Positions 13,109 to 31,991 of a stretch of DNA of 32,920 nt are shown piece by piece. Numbering within the stretch: the first letter of the stretch is position 1; each line of letters starts with the position of its first letter. The stretch comes from Thermoleophilia bacterium (GTDB lineage Bacteria; Actinomycetota; Thermoleophilia; Gaiellales; Gaiellaceae): NCBI GenBank assembly GCA_023382435.1, contig JAHDVS010000032.1:1-32920 (forward strand), in the 5' to 3' direction. Made by a program: the position numbers and the translations under genes. The notes beneath the pieces are model-generated. The model ran no database searches. It saw nothing but the letters and a program-made list of their open reading frames with translations, and was not told the DNA's origin.

Positions 13109-14377
13109 ATGGGCCTGACGCTCGCGGAGAAGGTGCTTGCGCGCGCCTCCGGGCGCGACGAGGTGCGGCCGGGCGAGTTCGTCGTCGCCTCGATCGATCT
13201 CGCGCTCGTGCACGACATCTTTGCCGCGGACGTGTTCCGCCACCTCGTCGAGCTCGGCGTCGAGGAGCTGTTCGACCCCGACCGCGTAGTCATCGTGCTC
13301 GACCACCTCGTGCCGGCCCCGTCCGAGGCCGCCGCGGCCGCCCATCGCACGATCCGCGAGCACGTCGAGCGCTTCGGGATCTCCTCCTTCTACGACGCCG
13401 GGGCCGGGATCTGCCACCAGCTCCTGCCCGAGCGCGGCCACATCACCCCGGGCGCGCTCGTGGTCGGCACCGACTCGCACACGACCACGCACGGCGCGCT
13501 CGCAGCGGCCGGCACCGGGATCGGCACCTCCGAGATGGTGTACGCGCTCGCGACCGGGAAGCTCTGGTTCCGGGTGCCGCCGACGATCCGCTTCGAGCTG
13601 ACCGGGGCGCTCGCACCGATGGTGGCCTGGAAGGACGTGATCCTCGCGCTCGCCGGGCGCCACGGCGACGACGTCGCCCAGTACAAGGCGGTCGAGCTCG
13701 GCGGGCCGGCCGCGAGCTCGGCGAGCATCGCGAGCCGCCTCACCGTCTGCAACATGGCGGTCGAGATCGGCGCCAAGTTCGGCTTCTTCGCCGCGGACGA
13801 GGCGGCCCTCGCCTACCTGGCCGAGCGGGGCCACGAGGGGCTCGAGCCGTTCGGCCCCGACCCGGACGCCGAGTACGAGGCCGTGCACGGGTTCGACCTC
13901 TCGTCGCTCGAGCCGCAGGTCGCGCTCCCCTCCGCGGTCGACAACGTCGAGCCGATCGGGCAGGTCGAGGGCACGCGGATCGACCAGGCCTTCATCGGCT
14001 CCTGCACGAACGGCCGCCTCGAGGACCTCGAGGCGGCGGCCGCGATCCTGCGCGGGCGGCAGGTCCACCCGGGCGTGCGGCTGCTCGTCGCCCCGGCCTC
14101 CCGCGCGGTCTTCCAGGCCGCCGTGCGCTCGGGGGCGATCCAGGCGCTCGCCGACGCCGGCGCCTCCGTGCTCCCGCCCGGCTGCGGGCCCTGCTTCGGC
14201 GGCCACGGCGGCCTGCTCGGACCGGGTGAGCGCTGCATCGGCACCCACAACCGCAACTTCGTCGGGCGGATGGGGAGCGCCCGGGCGGAGATCTTCCTCG
14301 CCTCTCCGCAGACCGTCGCGGCCTCCGCGCTCGCGGGCGCGATCGCCGACCCGAGGAAGGTCGGCGGGCGTGGCTAG
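13109..14377 (+). CDS. LeuC-like large subunit of an aconitase-superfamily hydro-lyase
   Basis: A 422-residue protein of the 3-isopropylmalate dehydratase / homoaconitase / dimethylmalate dehydratase large-subunit family. The 4Fe-4S ligands C299 (GSCTNGR), C359 and C362 (GCGPC) are all present, as is the substrate and histidine region VVGTDSHTTTHGAL. It isomerises or hydrates a hydroxydicarboxylate together with the LeuD-like subunit. The length fits the shorter archaeal-type LeuC. The setting among CoA-ester enzymes and a PrpF-like isomerase, without leuB, argues for catabolism rather than leucine synthesis. Its TAG stop lies at the edge of a 182-bp palindromic element that separates it from leuD. 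Confidence 0.92.
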   Translation: MGLTLAEKVLARASGRDEVRPGEFVVASIDLALVHDIFAADVFRHLVELGVEELFDPDRVVIVLDHLVPAPSEAAAAAHRTIREHVERFGISSFYDAGAGICHQLLPERGHITPGALVVGTDSHTTTHGALAAAGTGIGTSEMVYALATGKLWFRVPPTIRFELTGALAPMVAWKDVILALAGRHGDDVAQYKAVELGGPAASSASIASRLTVCNMAVEIGAKFGFFAADEAALAYLAERGHEGLEPFGPDPDAEYEAVHGFDLSSLEPQVALPSAVDNVEPIGQVEGTRIDQAFIGSCTNGRLEDLEAAAAILRGRQVHPGVRLLVAPASRAVFQAAVRSGAIQALADAGASVLPPGCGPCFGGHGGLLGPGERCIGTHNRNFVGRMGSARAEIFLASPQTVAASALAGAIADPRKVGGRG

Positions 14378-14554
14378 CGCGGCGTCTCACCGCGTTGCGC
14401 TGGAGACGCGGGGGAGGTGTAGGGGCGGGACCTGTCCCGCCCGAGACGATGCGGGCAGCGGGAAACGGGGCGGGTTGCGGGCCGGACAGGTCCGGCCCCT
14501 ACGCCGTCGCAGCCGATCGCGGCCGGCGCTTTGCGGTGGAACGGTATGAGAGGC
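14373..14554. repeat. 182-bp palindromic element between leuC-like and leuD-like genes (copy 1)
   Basis: The element matches the reverse complement of 22727-22907 end to end, at roughly 90 percent identity and almost without gaps by eye. It opens with GCTAGCGCGGCG, which includes the leuC-like stop codon, and ends near GGTATGAGAGGC. Each half contains a hairpin built on TAGGGGC(G/C)GGACCTGTCC (14420-14441 and, inverted, 14480-14501). The outer ends also resemble each other inverted, so the whole is one long imperfect palindrome, like a MITE or BIME. No protein is encoded in it. Confidence 0.85.
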
Positions 14555-14566
14555 GGCACTGACGCC

Positions 14567-15049
14567 GTGATCGCCGGTCGCGTCTGGCGCTTCGGCGACG
14601 ACGTCTCGACCGACCTGCTCTCCCCCGGCGAGTACGCGATCGCGCCGCTCGAGGTGCGAAAGCAGCACTGCCTCGAGTCGCTCAACCCGGTATTTCCGCG
14701 CGCGGCCAGTGCCGGCGACCTCGTCGTGGCCGGCAGCAACTTCGGCTGCGGCTCGAGTCGCGAGACCGCCCCGGAGAACCTGAAGGCGCTCGGGATAGCG
14801 TGCGTCGTCGCCGACTCGTTCGCCCGGATCTTCCTGCGCAACGCCGTCGCGATCGGCCTGCCCGTGCTCTCCTGCCCGGGCGCGTCGGCGGCGTTCGCCG
14901 ACGGGGACACGGCCGAGGTCGACCTCGGCGAGGGCACGCTCCGCCACGCCGGCACCGGCGTCGTGCTCCGCGGCGAGCCGCTGCCGCCCGAGATGCGCGA
15001 GATCCTCGCCGCCGGCGGGATCCTGGTCGTCCTGCGCGCGGGCGGCTGA
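14567..15049 (+). CDS. LeuD-like small subunit of an aconitase-superfamily hydro-lyase
   Basis: A 160-residue partner of the LeuC-like protein. The family signature GRVWRFGDDVSTD opens the protein and GSNFGCGSSRE holds the conserved swivelling-domain site. After STD the sequence reads LLSPGEYAIAPLEV instead of the IIPARYL usual in LeuD. This is the loop that contacts the substrate side chain in the family, so a different substrate is likely. The GTG at 14567 gives the usual N-terminal length. An ATG at 14546 and a TTG at 14531 are in-frame alternatives but fall inside the palindromic element. Confidence 0.88.
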   Translation: MIAGRVWRFGDDVSTDLLSPGEYAIAPLEVRKQHCLESLNPVFPRAASAGDLVVAGSNFGCGSSRETAPENLKALGIACVVADSFARIFLRNAVAIGLPVLSCPGASAAFADGDTAEVDLGEGTLRHAGTGVVLRGEPLPPEMREILAAGGILVVLRAGG

Positions 15050-15080: not shown

Positions 15081-17258
15081 GTGGCGCGCGACCCCAGGCA
15101 CGACGTTCTCTTCGAGCCGGTGCCGATCGGCGCGAGGACGCTGCGCAACCGCTTCTACAAGACTCCGCACTGCTCGAGCTTCGGCTCGGACTGGCCGGGC
15201 ACGCAGGCGCATTTCCGGGCGCTGGCGGCCGAGGGCGGCTGGGCGGCGGTCTCGACCGAGTACTGCTCGATCCACCCCTCGAGCGACGGCCACCCGAGCG
15301 TCGGCGCGCGCCTCTGGGACGCCACCGACGTCGCCAACCTCGGCCTCATGTGCGACCTCGTGCACGAGCACGGCTCGCTCGCCGGGGTGCAGCTCTGGTA
15401 CGGAGCCGCGCACGCGCGCAACTACGAGAGCCGCATGCCGGCGGCCGGTGTCTCGCAGGTCCCGAGCGACTACCTGTTCGTCCAGTCCTGCTACGAGCTC
15501 GACCTCGACGGGATCCGGGAGCTCCAGCGCTGGTACGTCGATGCGGCGTGCAGGGCCCGCTCGGCCGGGTTCGACATCGTCAACGTCTACGGCGGCCACG
15601 GCTACCCGATCACCTACCAGTTCCTCGACCCCTACTACAACCGGCGCAGCGACGAGTACGGCGGCTCGTTCGAGAACCGCGCCCGCTTCTGGCTCGAGAC
15701 GATCGAGCTCGTGCGCGAGGCGGTCGGTGACGACTGCTCGATCGCCGTGCGCACCTGCATCGCGCCGCTGCGCGAGGGCGGCCTGGCCGAGGAGGAGGCG
15801 CTCGCGTTCATCGAGCTCGCCGATCACCTGGTCGACCTCTGGGACCTCCAGATCGGGGGTGTGATCGGCGAGTGGGGCGAGGACTCGCTCTCCTCGCGCT
15901 TCGGCGCCGAGAACTACCAGCGTCCGTGGATCGAGAAGGCGCGCGCGCGCACGGCGAAGCCGCTCGTCGGTGTCGGGCGCTTCACGAGCCCTGACACGAT
16001 GGCCGCGATGGTGCGAGACGGGCTCCTCGACGTGATCGGCTCGGCGCGCGGCTCGATTGCCGACCCCTTCCTGCCCCGCAAGATCGAGGAGGGGCGGCTC
16101 GACGACGTCCGCGAGTGCATCGGCAACAACGTGTGCGCTGCCCGCTACATGCAGCGGGCTCTGCTCATCTGCACCCAGAACGCGACCGCGGGCGAGGAGT
16201 ACCGCCGCGGCTGGCACCCGGAGCGCTTCACGCGCGCCGCCAACGCTGACTCGGACGTGCTGGTCGTCGGCGCCGGCCCGGCCGGGATGGAGTGCGCGCG
16301 CGTGCTCGGCGAGCGGGGCCTGCGCCGCGTTCACCTCGTCGATGCGGCGGGCGAGCTCGGCGGCGCGCTGCGCTGGGTGACCGGGCTCCCGGGCCTCGGC
16401 GAGTGGGCGCGGGTCGTCAACTACCGCCGGATCCAGCTCGACAAGCTCTCGAACGTGGAGCTCGTTCCCGGCACCGCCCTCGACGCCCGTGCCGTACTCG
16501 ACTACGGCGCCGACCTCGTCGTCGTCGCGACCGGCTCGCGCTGGGCCGCCGACGGTCTCAGCGGCACCACCCACCGGCCGCTCCCGGGCGCCGGCCCGGG
16601 GCTCGCGCACGTCCTCACCCCGGAGGACGTGCTGGTGCGGGGGCTCGAGCCACCGGGCGAGCGGGTGCTCGTCTACGACACGGACGGCTACTACATGGGC
16701 ATCTCGCTCGCGGAGAAGCTCGCCCGCGAGGGCAGGCGCGTGACGTTCGTGACGCCGTTCGCCCAGATCTCCCCCTACAGCACGTTCACGCTCGAGGCGC
16801 CGCGGCTGAACCGGCTCCTGCGCTCGCTCGGCGTCGAGCTGCTCGCCGAGCACCTGGTCGAGCGGATCGAGCCGGGCCGGGTCGGCGGCTGCCACGTGTA
16901 CGCGCCCGACCGGCCGCTTTCGTGGGAGGCCGACGCGGTCGTGCTGGCGACGCAGCGCGTGTCCGAGGACGCGCTCTGGCGCGGGCTGCGCGCCGCCGGC
17001 GACGCCGTCCGTGACGCCGGCATCCGCGGCCTCTACCGGATCGGCGACTGCGTCGTGCCCCGTCTCGTCGCCGATGCCGTCTTCGACGGCCACCGGCTCG
17101 CGCGCGAGATCGACACGGACGACCCGGCGACGCCGCTGCCGTTCATCCGCGAGAACCGCGTGCTCGGCGCGAGCTCCGAGGATTACGACGGGACGCTCCG
17201 CACGCGCCCCTCCGGGGACTACGTGCCGAGCTCCCGACGTAGGAGGGGCGGGTCATGA
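15081..17258 (+). CDS. Trimethylamine-dehydrogenase-like flavoprotein (FMN barrel plus FAD/NAD-type domain)
   Basis: A 725-residue protein closely following trimethylamine dehydrogenase. It opens ARDPRHDVLFEPVPIG and keeps C31 (RFYKTPHC, the cysteine that bonds FMN), Y61 in STEYCS, the VYGGHGY active-site stretch and LVDLWD. It also keeps CTQNATAGEEYRRGWHPE and VVGAGPAGMECARVLGERG of the nucleotide-binding part. Two features differ. The iron-sulfur motif reads C346-I-G-N-N-V-C352 and then C364, so the second ligand cysteine is asparagine. The tryptophan after this motif is Y356. It may oxidise an amine or reduce an enoyl substrate. The GTG start has no clear ribosome site. The C-terminal RRRRGGS tail is encoded partly by a palindrome. 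Confidence 0.88.
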   Translation: MARDPRHDVLFEPVPIGARTLRNRFYKTPHCSSFGSDWPGTQAHFRALAAEGGWAAVSTEYCSIHPSSDGHPSVGARLWDATDVANLGLMCDLVHEHGSLAGVQLWYGAAHARNYESRMPAAGVSQVPSDYLFVQSCYELDLDGIRELQRWYVDAACRARSAGFDIVNVYGGHGYPITYQFLDPYYNRRSDEYGGSFENRARFWLETIELVREAVGDDCSIAVRTCIAPLREGGLAEEEALAFIELADHLVDLWDLQIGGVIGEWGEDSLSSRFGAENYQRPWIEKARARTAKPLVGVGRFTSPDTMAAMVRDGLLDVIGSARGSIADPFLPRKIEEGRLDDVRECIGNNVCAARYMQRALLICTQNATAGEEYRRGWHPERFTRAANADSDVLVVGAGPAGMECARVLGERGLRRVHLVDAAGELGGALRWVTGLPGLGEWARVVNYRRIQLDKLSNVELVPGTALDARAVLDYGADLVVVATGSRWAADGLSGTTHRPLPGAGPGLAHVLTPEDVLVRGLEPPGERVLVYDTDGYYMGISLAEKLAREGRRVTFVTPFAQISPYSTFTLEAPRLNRLLRSLGVELLAEHLVERIEPGRVGGCHVYAPDRPLSWEADAVVLATQRVSEDALWRGLRAAGDAVRDAGIRGLYRIGDCVVPRLVADAVFDGHRLAREIDTDDPATPLPFIRENRVLGASSEDYDGTLRTRPSGDYVPSSRRRRGGS

Positions 17259-17266
17259 CCCGCCCC
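17245..17266. repeat. Perfect 22-bp palindrome containing the flavoprotein stop codon
   Basis: Arms GGGGCGGGTCA and TGACCCGCCCC abut without a loop, and the flavoprotein's TGA lies at the centre. The CCCGCCCCTACG ending is shared with the 182-bp elements at 14373 and 22727. It probably also helps stop transcription between the convergent genes. Confidence 0.7.
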
Positions 17267-17283
17267 TACGGGGAATGAGCTGC

Positions 17284-17304
17284 GGGCGGGGCAGGGCCCG
17301 CCCC
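17284..17304. terminator. GC-rich hairpin at the end of isocitrate lyase
   Basis: GGGCGGG (17284-17290) pairs with CCCGCCC (17298-17304), and the next bases CTACG again match the ends of the dispersed elements. The aceA stop codon (17304-17306, minus strand) touches the stem. There is no T-run. Together with 17245-17266 it fills the 45-bp convergent gap. Confidence 0.5.
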
Positions 17305-18560
17305 TACGCGAACTGCTCCTGCTCGGTCGAGCCCTGGAGCGCGAGCGTCGAGCCGGTGCCCCCGGTGACCGTCTCGAGCACCGCGTCGAAGTAGCCGGCG
17401 CCGACCTCGCGCTGGTGCTTCGTGGCGGTGTAGCCGAGCTCTTCGAGGGCGAACTCGCGCTCCTGGAGGCGGACGTACGCGGCCATGCCCTCGTCCTGGT
17501 AGGCGTGGGCGAGCTCGAACATCGAGGCGTTGTTCGCGTGGAAGCCGGCGAGCGTGATGAACTGGAACCGGTAGCCGAGCTCGCCGAGCTCGTCCTGGAA
17601 CGCGGCGATCTCCGCGTCCGAGAGGTGCCGGCGCCAGTTGAACGAGGGCGAGCAGTTGTACGCGAGCGGCTTGCCGGGGAACCGCTCGTGGATCGCGGCC
17701 GCGAACTCGCGGGCCTCGCCGAGGTCCGGCGTGGACGTCTCGCACCAGACGAGATCGGCGTAGGGGGCGTAGGCGAGCCCGCGCGCGATCGCAGAGTCGA
17801 GCCCGCAGCGGATGCGGTAGAAGCCCTCGGGCGTCCGCTCGCCGGTCGTGAACTCCTCGTCGGCTGCGTCGACGTCGCTCGTGAGCAGCTTCGCGGCGAG
17901 CGCGTCCGTGCGGGCGACGATCACGGTCGGCACCTCGAGGACGTCGGCCGCGAGCCTGGCGGCGACGAGCGTGCGCACGAACTGGCTCGTCGGGACGAGC
18001 ACTTTCCCGCCGAGGTGGCCGCACTTCTTCTCGGAGGCGAGCTGATCCTCGAAGTGCACGCCGGCCGCGCCCGCCTCGATCATCGACTTCATCAGCTCGA
18101 ACGCGTGCAGCGGCCCGCCGAAGCCGGCCTCCGCATCCGCGAGGATGGGGGCGAGCCAGCGCGAGTGGCCCGGGCCGTTACCGTTCTGGGAGCCGCCGAG
18201 GCCCTCCGCGTGCTCGATCTGGTCGGCCCGCAGGAGCGCGTTGTTGATGCGCTTCACGAGCGCGGGGACGCTGTTGACCGGGTAGAGGCTCTGGTCGGGA
18301 TAGGTCTGCCCGGAGAGATTAGCGTCGGCCGCAACCTGCCAGCCCGAGAGATAGATCGCCTTCGCGCCCGCCTGCACCATCTGGACGGCCTGCGCGCCGG
18401 TCTGCGCGCCGAGCGCCCGCACGAGCGGGCCCTCGGCGATCAGGCGCCGAAGCCGGGTCGCGCCGAGTCGGGCGATCGTGTGCTCGACGAGGACCGACCC
18501 GCGCAGCCGCTCGACCTCCCCATCCGTGTACGGCCGTACGATCTCGCCCTGCTCGCGCAT
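17304..18560 (-). CDS. aceA: Isocitrate lyase
   Basis: Cleaves isocitrate to glyoxylate and succinate in the glyoxylate shunt, letting cells grow on acetate or fatty acids. The 418 residues carry the active-site signature KKCGHLGGK with catalytic C180, preceded by HFEDQLASE. The N-terminal [15 protein letters not shown] stretch and the NCSPSFNW segment are typical of bacterial AceA. The ATG at 18560 follows GGAGG nine bases away, and this start gives the usual length. No malate synthase gene is in the window. The gene is divergent from a GntR regulator, with GGATCC-centred repeats between them that probably control it. Confidence 0.96.
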
Positions 18561-22649: not shown

Positions 22650-22726
22650 CCGCGTCCTCCCAATACTTTGATTTGTAAAGCGACTTCGGTAGTTGTAGCG
22701 GATCCGCCGGGCGGACGCCAGGGTGG

Positions 22727-22907
22727 CCTCTCACACCGTTCAACCGCAAACCGCCGGCCGGGATCGGTCGCGACGGCGTAGGGGCCGGACCTGTCCGGCC
22801 CGCGACCCGTCCCGTTTCCCGGTGCTCGCATCGTCTCGGGCGGGACAGGTCCCGCCCCTACACCTCCTCTGCGTTTCCGGTGCAACGTCGTGAGGCGCCG
22901 CGCTAGC
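22727..22907. repeat. Palindromic element between metY and hemH (copy 2, inverted relative to 14373-14554)
   Basis: Read on the minus strand it begins GCTAGCGCGGCG, containing the ferrochelatase stop codon, and ends near GGTGTGAGAGGC. It matches copy 1 over its whole length, with scattered substitutions. The two internal hairpins are at 22777-22800 and 22837-22862. The element lies between hemH and the metY promoter, so it may end hemH transcription. Confidence 0.85.
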
Positions 22908-25904: not shown

Positions 25905-26483
25905 ATGACAATTGGAGACGTGCCCGGTCCGGTCACGGATCCACGCGCCGCCGAGCTCCTCGCCCGCCACGGGGAGCTGTTCGGCGGCTCCGCCGTGCCC
26001 GTCCCTGTCGAGTCGATCGCCGAGGACATGCTCGGCCTGCGGATCGCCGAGTCGGACGGCCTCCCCGTCTCGGGACTCCTGCTCCCGCGCGAGCGGGAGA
26101 TCTGGCTGAACGCCGCCGAGGCCCGCCAGAGCGCCGGCCGCCGCCGCTTCACGATCGCCCACGAGCTCGGCCACTGGGTCTGCCAGGTCCTCGAAGGCCA
26201 CCGCGCCCCGATCTACTGCCGCCAGGCCGCGATCCACCCGGCCGCGGACGCCGAACTCCAGCAGGGTGTAGGGGCCGGACCTGTCCGGCCCGCGACGACC
26301 CCGCCACTCGAGCGCGAGGCGAACGTCTTTGCCGCCGAGCTCCTGATGCCCGAGCCAGCCGTAAGAAGCGCGTTCTCCCCGGACGACTCCGTCGAGGCGA
26401 CGGCGACCCGATTCGACGTGTCCCAGGAGGCCATGCGCTGGCGGCTCTTCAACTTCGGCCTGGTCGGGGAGCGGCCGGCGTGA
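25905..26483 (+). CDS. ImmA/IrrE family zinc metallopeptidase with an in-frame repeat insertion
   Basis: A 192-residue protein with the zinc motif HELGH (residues 86-90) in FTIAHELGHWVCQ and a later LEREANVFAAELLMP stretch, where E138 is the likely third ligand. A DVSQEAMRWRLFNFGL tail follows. Family members cleave phage-type repressors or act in toxin-antitoxin and stress switches. Usually an HTH partner is encoded just upstream, but none is seen here. Residues 121-131 (GVGAGPVRPAT) are encoded by a 30-bp copy of the palindromic repeat family, placed between the two zinc-ligand segments. The ATG at 25905 was chosen; an in-frame GTG at 25920 is the alternative. Confidence 0.88.
   Translation: MTIGDVPGPVTDPRAAELLARHGELFGGSAVPVPVESIAEDMLGLRIAESDGLPVSGLLLPREREIWLNAAEARQSAGRRRFTIAHELGHWVCQVLEGHRAPIYCRQAAIHPAADAELQQGVGAGPVRPATTPPLEREANVFAAELLMPEPAVRSAFSPDDSVEATATRFDVSQEAMRWRLFNFGLVGERPA
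26267..26296. repeat. 30-bp palindromic repeat core inserted in frame in the ImmA/IrrE gene
   Basis: The sequence TGTAGGGGCCGGACCTGTCC plus GGCCCGCGAC is the same core as 22778-22806 of the element between metY and hemH. It is exactly ten codons long and keeps the reading frame. Confidence 0.8.
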
Positions 26484-26487
26484 AGAG

Positions 26488-26697
26488 CTACGCGCCCGCT
26501 GCGGGGCCGAGCTTCTCCGGGTCGATCGCCACGCGCTCGCGCTCCTCGTGCCAGACCTCGAGGCCGCCGGCCGCGCCCGGCTCCGCCGCGGCGAACCGAA
26601 GCAGCGCCGCCTCGGCATCCGCGAACGTCTCGAACTCGCCGAGGAAGTTCCGCGAGGCCCGGTCGAGCAGAACGTACGGCCTCTCACCCACGCTCAT
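26488..26697 (-). CDS. Small hypothetical protein (69 residues)
   Basis: An unrecognised 69-residue protein starting MSVGERPYVLLDRASRNFL. The pattern is a beta-hairpin (YVLLD, NFLGEF), then an alanine-rich helix (DAEAALLRFAAAE), then a strand (LEVWHEE). This resembles short actinobacterial proteins that describe a residue-counting 'EAEA' helix after a beta-hairpin, whose function I do not know. It is supported by its GC3 pattern and because it fits exactly between the ImmA/IrrE stop (5 bp away) and the helicase start. The ribosome site is weak. Confidence 0.55.
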   Translation of the reverse strand: MSVGERPYVLLDRASRNFLGEFETFADAEAALLRFAAAEPGAAGGLEVWHEERERVAIDPEKLGPAAGA

Positions 26698-26765
26698 CAC
26701 ATTGAACCACCCGTTCGAGCAGGACGCCGGGCGCGGCCGCGAGCGAGTCCGGCGCGTCGGGACGT

Positions 26766-26779
26766 CCGAGTACTCTCGG
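26766..26779. promoter_or_regulatory. Short inverted repeat just before the SNF2 helicase start
   Basis: CCGAG and CTCGG arms enclose TACT and end 3 bp before the ATG. It could be an operator controlling the defence-like genes, or chance. Confidence 0.2.
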
Positions 26780-26781
26780 CC

Positions 26782-30311
<3,530 letters not shown>

Positions 30312-30315
<4 letters not shown>

Positions 30316-31991
30316 CCGACGCGGAGGTGCGGGAGGCGATCGAAGGCGGCGAGACGTTCACGGTCGAGTTCAAAGGCGAGGAGAGCGAGCCGATCAACGA
30401 TCGGGAGCTCATCGAGACGGTGGTCTGTCTCGCGAACGGCGACGGCGGGACGCTCCTAATCGGTGTTGAGGACGATGGTCGGGTCACCGGTGCGCGTCCT
30501 CGTCACGAGGCGGGGACCACAGATCCGGATCGACTGAAAGCACTCATCGCGAACAACACGGAGCCTCCCGTTCGGGTCGAGGTAGACCTCATCGCGGTCG
30601 ATGGTGAGATGGTTCTTGCGATCGGCGTTCCCAACGAAGCGCGAGCCGTCGGCACAAGGGATGCGCGATACATCCGACGGGCGCTCGGGGGTGACGGTCG
30701 ACCCGCCTGCATCCCGTTGCACGCCACCGAGATGCTGGCACATCAGATCGAGCGCGGAGCGGTCGACTACGCGGCTCTGGAGATTCCCGAGGCTCGCTGG
30801 GAGGATCTCGACCCGCTCGAGTTCGAGCGACTTCGCCGGTTGATTCGGGAGAGCGGTGGCGATGACGCGCTTACCGAGCTCTCCGATGCGGAGATCGCAA
30901 AGGCGCTCGGTGTCGTCGTCGCGAACGGCGAGATCCGATCGATCCGGGCGGGCGCGCTACTCCTGTTCGGTCGTGAGAAGGCGCTTCGACGCTTCTTGCC
31001 GACTCACGAAGTCGCTTTCCAGGTGTTGAGCGGAACTGACGTCGAGGTCAACGACTTCTTCCGGTGGCCGCTCTTCCGGGTCGCCGACGAGCTGCTCTCG
31101 CGGTTTCGCGCGCGAAACACCGAGGAGGAGATCCAATCGGGGTTGCTGAGGATCGGGATCCCGGAGTACCCGGAAGCCTCGTTCCGGGAAGCCGTGGCCA
31201 ACGCGCTTGTCCACCGGGACTACACTCGCCTTGGCGCGGTGCATGTTCAGTGGCAGGACGCCTCGCTTGAGATCAGCAACCCGGGTGGGCTTCCGGCCGG
31301 GATCAACCTCGACAACCTCCTGGTTGCTCCCCCGAGACCGCGCAACCCGATCCTCGCGGATGCCTTCAAGCGGGCGGGCCTGGTCGAGCGCACAGGCCGC
31401 GGGGTAAACCGGATCTACGAGGGCCAGCTGCGGTACGGCCGCGGTGCGCCCGACTACTCACGGTCGACGTGGGAGGACGTCGTCGTCGTCCTTTCCGGCG
31501 GTCAAGCGAACCTGGCGCTCACCCGGTATGTGGTCGAGCAGGCCCAGGCAGGCCGGCCGCTCTCGCTCGAGGCCCTGATTATCGTCAACGAGTTGATCCG
31601 AGAACGCCGTGTGACAACCGCGCACGCGGCGACGCTCTTCCAGCGGGATGAGAGCACGGCTCGCCAGCTCCTCAACCGACTGGTCGATCGGGGACTCCTC
31701 GAGGCACGAGGCGAGGCGCGGGGCCGAACCTACCACCTGTCCGCTGCGGCGTATCGGGCTATCGGGGAGGACGTGGCATACGTTCGCGTCCACGGCTTCG
31801 AGCCTCTCCAGCAGGAGCAGATGATCCTGAGCTACGTTGACGCCCACGGGCAAATCACTCGTGGGCAGGCAGCCGAGCTCTGTCAAGTCGCGCCTCGCCA
31901 GGCCAGAGCAGTGCTTAAACGACTGGTAGCGCGAGGAGAGCTTCGTCTCATCGGTCAGAGACGTCGTGCCCGCTATGAACGCCCGTCCTAA
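30312..31991 (+). CDS. AlbA_2 (Schlafen-like) DNA-binding protein with HATPase_c_4 and winged-helix C-terminus
   Basis: A 559-residue protein. The AlbA_2 domain occupies about residues 8-130, with ETFTVEFKGEES and VCLANGDGGTLLIGVEDDG as hallmarks. The HATPase_c_4 region follows at about 290-380, with FREAVANALVHRDY and EISNPGGLPAG. The last 150 residues contain two winged-helix-like repeats (RRVTTAHAATLFQRDEST and GQITRGQAAELCQVAPRQA). Such proteins accompany defence systems or act as regulators, and some are annotated as RecG-like. It starts at a GTG within the helicase stop (GTGA overlap). Third positions are visibly less G/C than in its neighbours, suggesting later gain. Confidence 0.9.

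Follow-up and report, generated by a model that had tools for sequence, protein, structure and literature searches.

A 183-bp unit separates a leuC-like gene from a leuD-like gene in the window (the whole 32,920-nt stretch of DNA that was analysed). This unit is very probably a nested, non-autonomous mobile element, composed of an IS630-type MITE as the outer shell and a REPIN as the inner core, that spread in trans and split leuC from leuD. The initial annotation had described a foldback unit of 182 bp at positions 14373-14554. Such a unit exists, but family alignment sets its edges at 14377 and 14559 (+ strand). The annotation also took it for a MITE-like foldback moved by an enzyme acting in trans. 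This fits the data, although it missed that two elements are nested, with IS630-type outer ends and REPs as the inner hairpins.

A dispersed family of composite elements

The composite is a dispersed family, with about a dozen long copies and many fragments in its own genome (an assembly of 2.73 Mb in 79 contigs, 96% complete). There are 40 scored matches in this genome, 12 of them with E<=1e-29, and these rule out a simple two-copy duplication. The second copy in the window is inverted (22721-22903, - strand) and lies after a ferrochelatase-like gene that ends, with TAG, at the edge of the copy. Self-comparison of the window paired 14373-14564 with 22716-22907 (192 nt, 89% complementary), and BLAST aligned the two copies over 182 nt at 90% without gaps, confirming the inverted, nearly gap-free copy 8 kb away that had been annotated. 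The proposal that the unit belongs to a dispersed family and is not a lone duplication also stands, both because there are more than two copies and because the stems carry compensatory changes (see below).

The aligned unit begins with TA-GCGCGGC(G/C)TCTCATGACGTT..., followed by GTAGGGGCGGGACCTGTCCCGCCC, a spacer (36 bp between the REPs in the window copies) and the inverted partner REP, and it ends with ...AACGTCATGAGAGGCCGCGC-TA. In the genome, the complete unit with two ends and two REPs is present seven times (L001-L006, L012). Four further copies combine the REP pair with a single end (L007-L010), and two consist of the pair without either end (L011, L014). Others have an end with one REP or none (L013, L015, L016, L017, L019, L021, L038, L039). 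No long copy of the composite was found in the 60 relatives searched, and short hairpin matches were present in only 4 of the 60. As annotated, there is no transposase nearby: none was detected among the window ORFs scanned with Pfam.

The outer shell

The outer shell is a MITE with terminal inverted repeats and a TA target duplication. Its ends, which adjoin the target TA and read G[CT]GCGGC[CG]TCTCATGACGTT, are inverted and span approximately 20-22 bp. At leuC-leuD, the left terminal inverted repeat, GCGCGGCGTCTCACCGCGTT (14377-14396, + strand), was placed by the end pattern and the family consensus, and the right repeat (14540-14559, - strand) contains an ATG at 14546. These inverted outer ends had been recognized in the initial annotation, and in this copy each has 3 mismatches to the family consensus. 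The left TA duplication (14375-14376) also provides the first two bases of the leuC stop, TAG (14375-14377), and the expected right TA duplication (14560-14561) reads TG, one change. One TA is altered in each of the two window copies (TG in one, CA in the other). The end pattern had 14 matches in the genome versus 1 for the reversed control, and it occurs in 4 of 129 genomes of the order and 8 of 399 genomes of the class (own included), all in one family and with 0 control matches. Shell elements are 54 to 194 bp long and non-coding, with inverted ends of 20-22 bp.

The check for target-site duplications that the annotation had suggested gave a positive result. TA is present at both edges of 11 family elements, three in the same genome (L003, L004, L006) and eight in relatives (L202, L204, L206, L210, L211, L214, L216, L218). 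Loci with shell ends were fetched by a pattern that contains TAG, so among these elements only the second edge is free of bias. The inferred empty targets of these 11 elements are CTAG in seven cases and TTAG, GTAG, CTAC and GTAC in one case each. The seven CTAG targets would also be expected of a MITE from a different DDE family, one whose target duplication is the 4 bp CTAG, and MITEPsy1 is described, in the relevant passages of PMC3189936, as targeting CTAG or YTAA, with duplication. However, the other four sites (L006, L204, L206, L214) differ outside the TA, and the edges of the elements there are still G and C. Thus, the G and C beside the TA are part of the element and the duplication comprises TA alone, which explains the constant edges at non-CTAG sites without mutations. 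In addition, the transposase fragment that neighbors the shell end is from IS630. We consider a CTAG-duplicating MITE very unlikely.

The link between the shell and IS630 consists of one scored fragment and of short protein tail remnants in two further genomes. A frame in G028, a relative in the same family, matches DDE_3 (E 8e-8) and NCBIfam transpos_IS630 (E 2e-12, below the cut-off, as the frame is a fragment), and this IS630-family fragment stops 44 nt within a perfect shell end. A 257-bp TA-flanked element in G106 and a single end in G093 both keep remnants of the same IS630 protein tail (53% over 36 residues and 81% over 16 residues, respectively); two further loci, L268 and L269, had no match to it. 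No complete IS630 transposon with both shell ends was found. The composite's own genome had 0 matches to PF13358 and 0 to the G028 fragment.

Shells occur without REPs, and targets occur without shells. The shells of G104 are bare 54-bp hairpins between two TA, with no REP (L204, L206, L216, L218), and a DNA fold of one of these hairpins was much more stable than the folds of its shuffled sequences (z -9.5). The composite's own genome also has a REP-free shell (L038). The seven genomes of the genus to which G104 belongs yielded two clear empty sites for family elements. At the first, G102 (contig C89) reads TTCTAGCCGGAG, and G104 (C90) has ...CTCCTAG, the 54-bp element and CACTAGCCGGGAA. At the second, G104 (C306) reads GACTAG, and G029 (C2) carries a 159-bp element. 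The more diverged G078 (C36) is also empty. In G104 we also observed a second high-copy palindrome family (GTGGGGTGTCCCGC...GCGGGACACCCCAC) directly adjoining the shell family (L214 and further matches).

Could the unit instead be a functional RNA or a terminator at gene 3' ends, conserved in place and immobile? Many copies lie directly after stop codons, and the RNA fold of the window element is stronger than that of 200 of 200 shuffles (z -4.96). However, orthologous sites can be empty, the neighbors differ at each copy, Rfam had 0 matches in the window, and the ends are limited to 8 of 399 class genomes (own included) in a single family. An immobile RNA or terminator is, in our view, extremely improbable.

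The inner core

The inner core is a GTAG-type REP pair, that is, a REPIN: palindromes of 20-40 bp, tagged with GTAG at one end and inverted at a fixed spacing. Pattern matches place one REP, GTAGGGGCGGGACCTGTCCCGCCC, at 14419-14442 (+ strand) and its head-to-head partner, GTAGGGGCCGGACCTGTCCGGCCC, at 14479-14502 (- strand). These are the two internal hairpins (GGACCTGTCC/GGACAGGTCC) that the initial annotation had correctly pointed out. The REP pattern has 149 matches with at most 3 mismatches in the genome versus 0 for the reversed control, with self-symmetrical sites scored on both strands. Among the matches listed (100 of 149), at least 46 have at most 1 mismatch and there are at least 13 head-to-head pairs spaced 59-60 bp apart. 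All 13 of these listed pairs combine one CC..GG REP with one CG..CG REP; seven lie between two shell ends, four beside one and two beside none. In this genome, the listed matches with 2 mismatches also include many examples of another REP subtype, GTAGGGGCGGGTCATGACCCGCCCCTAC, that is symmetrical throughout.

The REP stem is maintained through compensatory change. Across 77 distinct contexts from the loci fetched, one variable position of the stem pairs C-G 45 times and G-C 30 times and is mismatched twice, and a second stem pair is A-T in 64, T-A in 9 and something else in 4.

REPs are also found elsewhere in the window. Two REP variants in tandem (17246-17307, - strand) lie between convergent OYE-like and isocitrate lyase-like genes, and the latter takes its TAG stop from the GTAG at 17304-17307. 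A lone REP (26268-26291, + strand) lies within an open reading frame that matches PADLOC capP (E 6e-24), in its M78 (ImmA/IrrE) peptidase domain. Judged by eye, the REP region (26265-26310) adds about 16 residues and no stop to this frame and looks like an in-frame intragenic REP. Beside the ImmA-like gene, at 26548-31991, there is an HmaA-like SNF2/DEAD helicase (PADLOC 1613 bits) and then a Schlafen-AlbA_2 protein, and this region at the end of the window is a probable defence island.

The GTAG tags and the head-to-head REP pair raise the alternative that all 183 bp are a single REP-type element (a BIME or REPIN) moved by a RAYT, with the outer palindrome representing extended arms. The genome does contain three Y1/RAYT-like genes (L031, L032 and L033, of which L031 is truncated). 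The two that were tested match NCBIfam REP_Tyr_transpos (E 8e-16 and 3e-21), both below the model cut-off. A Y1 match is present in 77 of 101 genomes of the family. However, the flanks of the genome's own Y1 genes carry other palindromes (inverted GGGGTCAGACCCC-type repeats at L033, another palindrome at L032), and we set aside the genome's own RAYTs as movers of the composite. No RAYT flanked by the composite's REP was found among the three Y1 genes and 30 RAYT loci of the family that were examined; one stray GTAGGGGC near one RAYT gene is not a flanking REP pair. The REP-associated RAYT/Y1 link that the initial annotation had put forward was not borne out at these loci. A RAYT flanked by the same REP is typical of GTAG REPs but is not required. 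Also contrary to a single REP-type element, the outer ends occur REP-free (the 54-bp TA-flanked hairpins of G104, and L038), and an IS630 fragment lies beside outer ends. It is therefore highly doubtful that the entire unit is one REP-type element.

Stop codons

Most copies in the genome have, as their left edge, a TAG that terminates a long reading frame. The frames that end at copies include leuC, the ferrochelatase-like gene and, named by eye from their C-termini with no search, an enoyl-CoA-hydratase-like frame and a cytochrome-c-like frame. The MITE starts with G, so a copy that enters the TA of a TAG stop restores that stop and leaves the upstream protein as it was. At the insertion point of both clear empty sites, the native stop is already TAG.

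We regard the association with stop codons as mostly explained by the CTAG target, since CTAG is rare and often a stop in a genome of 72% GC, and we rejected a stop-codon preference as a separate property. Frames of at least 200 codons end at 8 of 11 CTAG ends of elements versus 15 of 31 other CTAG sites. When ends were grouped by hand, with a qualifying frame having at least 200 codons or being cytochrome-c-like and with four weak element ends taken out of the controls, 13 of 16 elements had at least one end at a qualifying frame, versus 12 of 27 other CTAG sites (Fisher p 0.026). Enrichment at stop codons beyond the CTAG target itself is weak.

The leuC-leuD junction

The LeuC-like large subunit gene (13109-14377, + strand, start chosen by eye) is in the aconitase / 3-isopropylmalate dehydratase family, and its TAG stop is at the edge of the element. 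The LeuD-like small subunit gene (14546-15049, + strand) has a candidate start at ATG 14546, in the right inverted repeat, and an alternative at GTG 14567. Matches to Pfam Aconitase (E 1e-100) and Aconitase_C (E 1e-16) flank the palindromic unit, so its annotated position between these two genes is real. NCBIfam places LeuC and LeuD in 3-isopropylmalate dehydratase / homoaconitase subfamilies, with no equivalog cut-off passed. The nearest LeuC relatives among named genomes are from actinobacterial MAGs (72%).

The annotation's premise that leuC and leuD normally abut or overlap holds among near relatives: of the 22 relatives whose LeuC is at least 60% identical, 20 have a leuD start that overlaps the leuC stop, mostly 5 nt before the stop. 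An adjacent leuD is present in 59 of 80 LeuC relatives, where the gap from the leuC stop to LeuD residue 1 is at most 96 nt; in the window it is 189 nt. A GTG at 14370-14372 (+ strand), 5 nt before the leuC stop and where most near relatives start leuD, is probably a vestige of the former leuD start codon. In the window, GTG-GC-TAG is still present at the left edge of the element and (TG)ACGCCGTGATC at the right edge, and these edges, if joined, would give the overlapping start GTG GCT (A/G)AC GCC GTG ATC. From the retained edges and the overlap in relatives, we infer that the element probably split a leuC-leuD overlap and removed leuD's own start.

The junction without the element would read ...GGCTA-ACGCC... 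(or TG for TA), in full ...GTGGCTAACGCCGTGATC... (or TGA for TAA), and the stop and start would overlap. leuD now probably starts at ATG 14546, in frame and inside the element. Coupling of leuC and leuD may have been lost, and expression of leuD may be affected. A leuC-leuD site without the element was not found among the 60 relatives searched, which included no genome of the same genus. LeuD relatives within the family are at most 47% identical.

Order of events

REP-free shells (G104, L038) and a shell-free REP pair (L014) both occur. Since each part is found without the other, the shell and the REP pair are separable. The simplest order has the shell first and the REP pair second. A shell MITE of the IS630 family (Tc1/mariner type) would have spread with an IS630 transposase supplied in trans, inserting into TA and duplicating it. 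A REPIN would then have entered one shell copy, and the composite would have spread further. The reverse order is also possible, and L038 may have lost its REP pair. At leuC-leuD, insertion would have split the overlapping stop and start, with leuC keeping its TAG stop and leuD taking a new start, ATG 14546, from the right inverted repeat. We infer both the order of these events and which enzyme moved the leuC-leuD copy.

We speculate, with considerable reservation, that the composite might be a two-engine element, with a RAYT-type REPIN inside an IS630 MITE, in which the shell acts as a stop/start cassette that rebuilds TAG on entry and supplies an ATG on exit. If there are two engines, the REPIN would gain spread via a second transposase. 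If the shell is a stop/start cassette, the element could enter overlapping gene junctions in operons with little harm. A case with occupied, REP-free and empty states bears on how REP dimers came to lie within larger palindromes. It shows a small transposon settling in a stop codon with the protein unaltered, and it offers a test of REPIN hitch-hiking on another transposon.

Comparison with known systems

We found no published description of an IS630-type MITE that carries a REP pair, judged by titles and abstract openings. What is new here is the identity of the shell, the REP-free and empty states and the rebuilding of stop codons; the composite is a variant of known mobile DNA and not a new kind.

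A similar composite, a GTAG REP dimer within a longer palindrome, is known from Anabaena variabilis. In the relevant passages of Di Nocera et al. 2013 (PMC3733652), GTAG-15 REP dimers are described inside long palindromes with the ends TATAG..CTATA. These passages state that REP-free target palindromes were not found in A. variabilis, and they report REP dimers embedded in larger palindromes without investigating them in detail. In contrast, REP-free shells are present here in the composite's own genome as well as in relatives, and we link the shell to IS630. The same passages report that the ends of GTAG REPs often provide TAG stops, that REPs are also found inside genes, and that GTAG repeats occur in Proteobacteria, Cyanobacteria, Chloroflexi and the PVC group.

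REPINs, as outlined in the parts of PMC3116915 that define them, are inverted REP doublets with a fixed spacing that behave as a unit and can be excised. The REP pair described here differs in that it is nested in an element with terminal inverted repeats and has no cognate RAYT among the loci examined. RUP of Streptococcus pneumoniae, which a review (PMC2229807) treats together with IS630-Spn1, is small, has IS630-like ends, uses targets that contain TA and is moved in trans, according to the section on it. The composite differs from RUP in sequence, its targets are often TAG stops that are rebuilt, and it carries a REP pair, whereas none is mentioned for RUP in that section. Lastly, MITEPsy1 is presented in those passages of PMC3189936 as a 100-bp MITE, possibly related to IS5, with a CTAG target and a 4-bp duplication. 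It has the CTAG target in common with the shell, but the duplication is 4 bp in MITEPsy1 and TA here.
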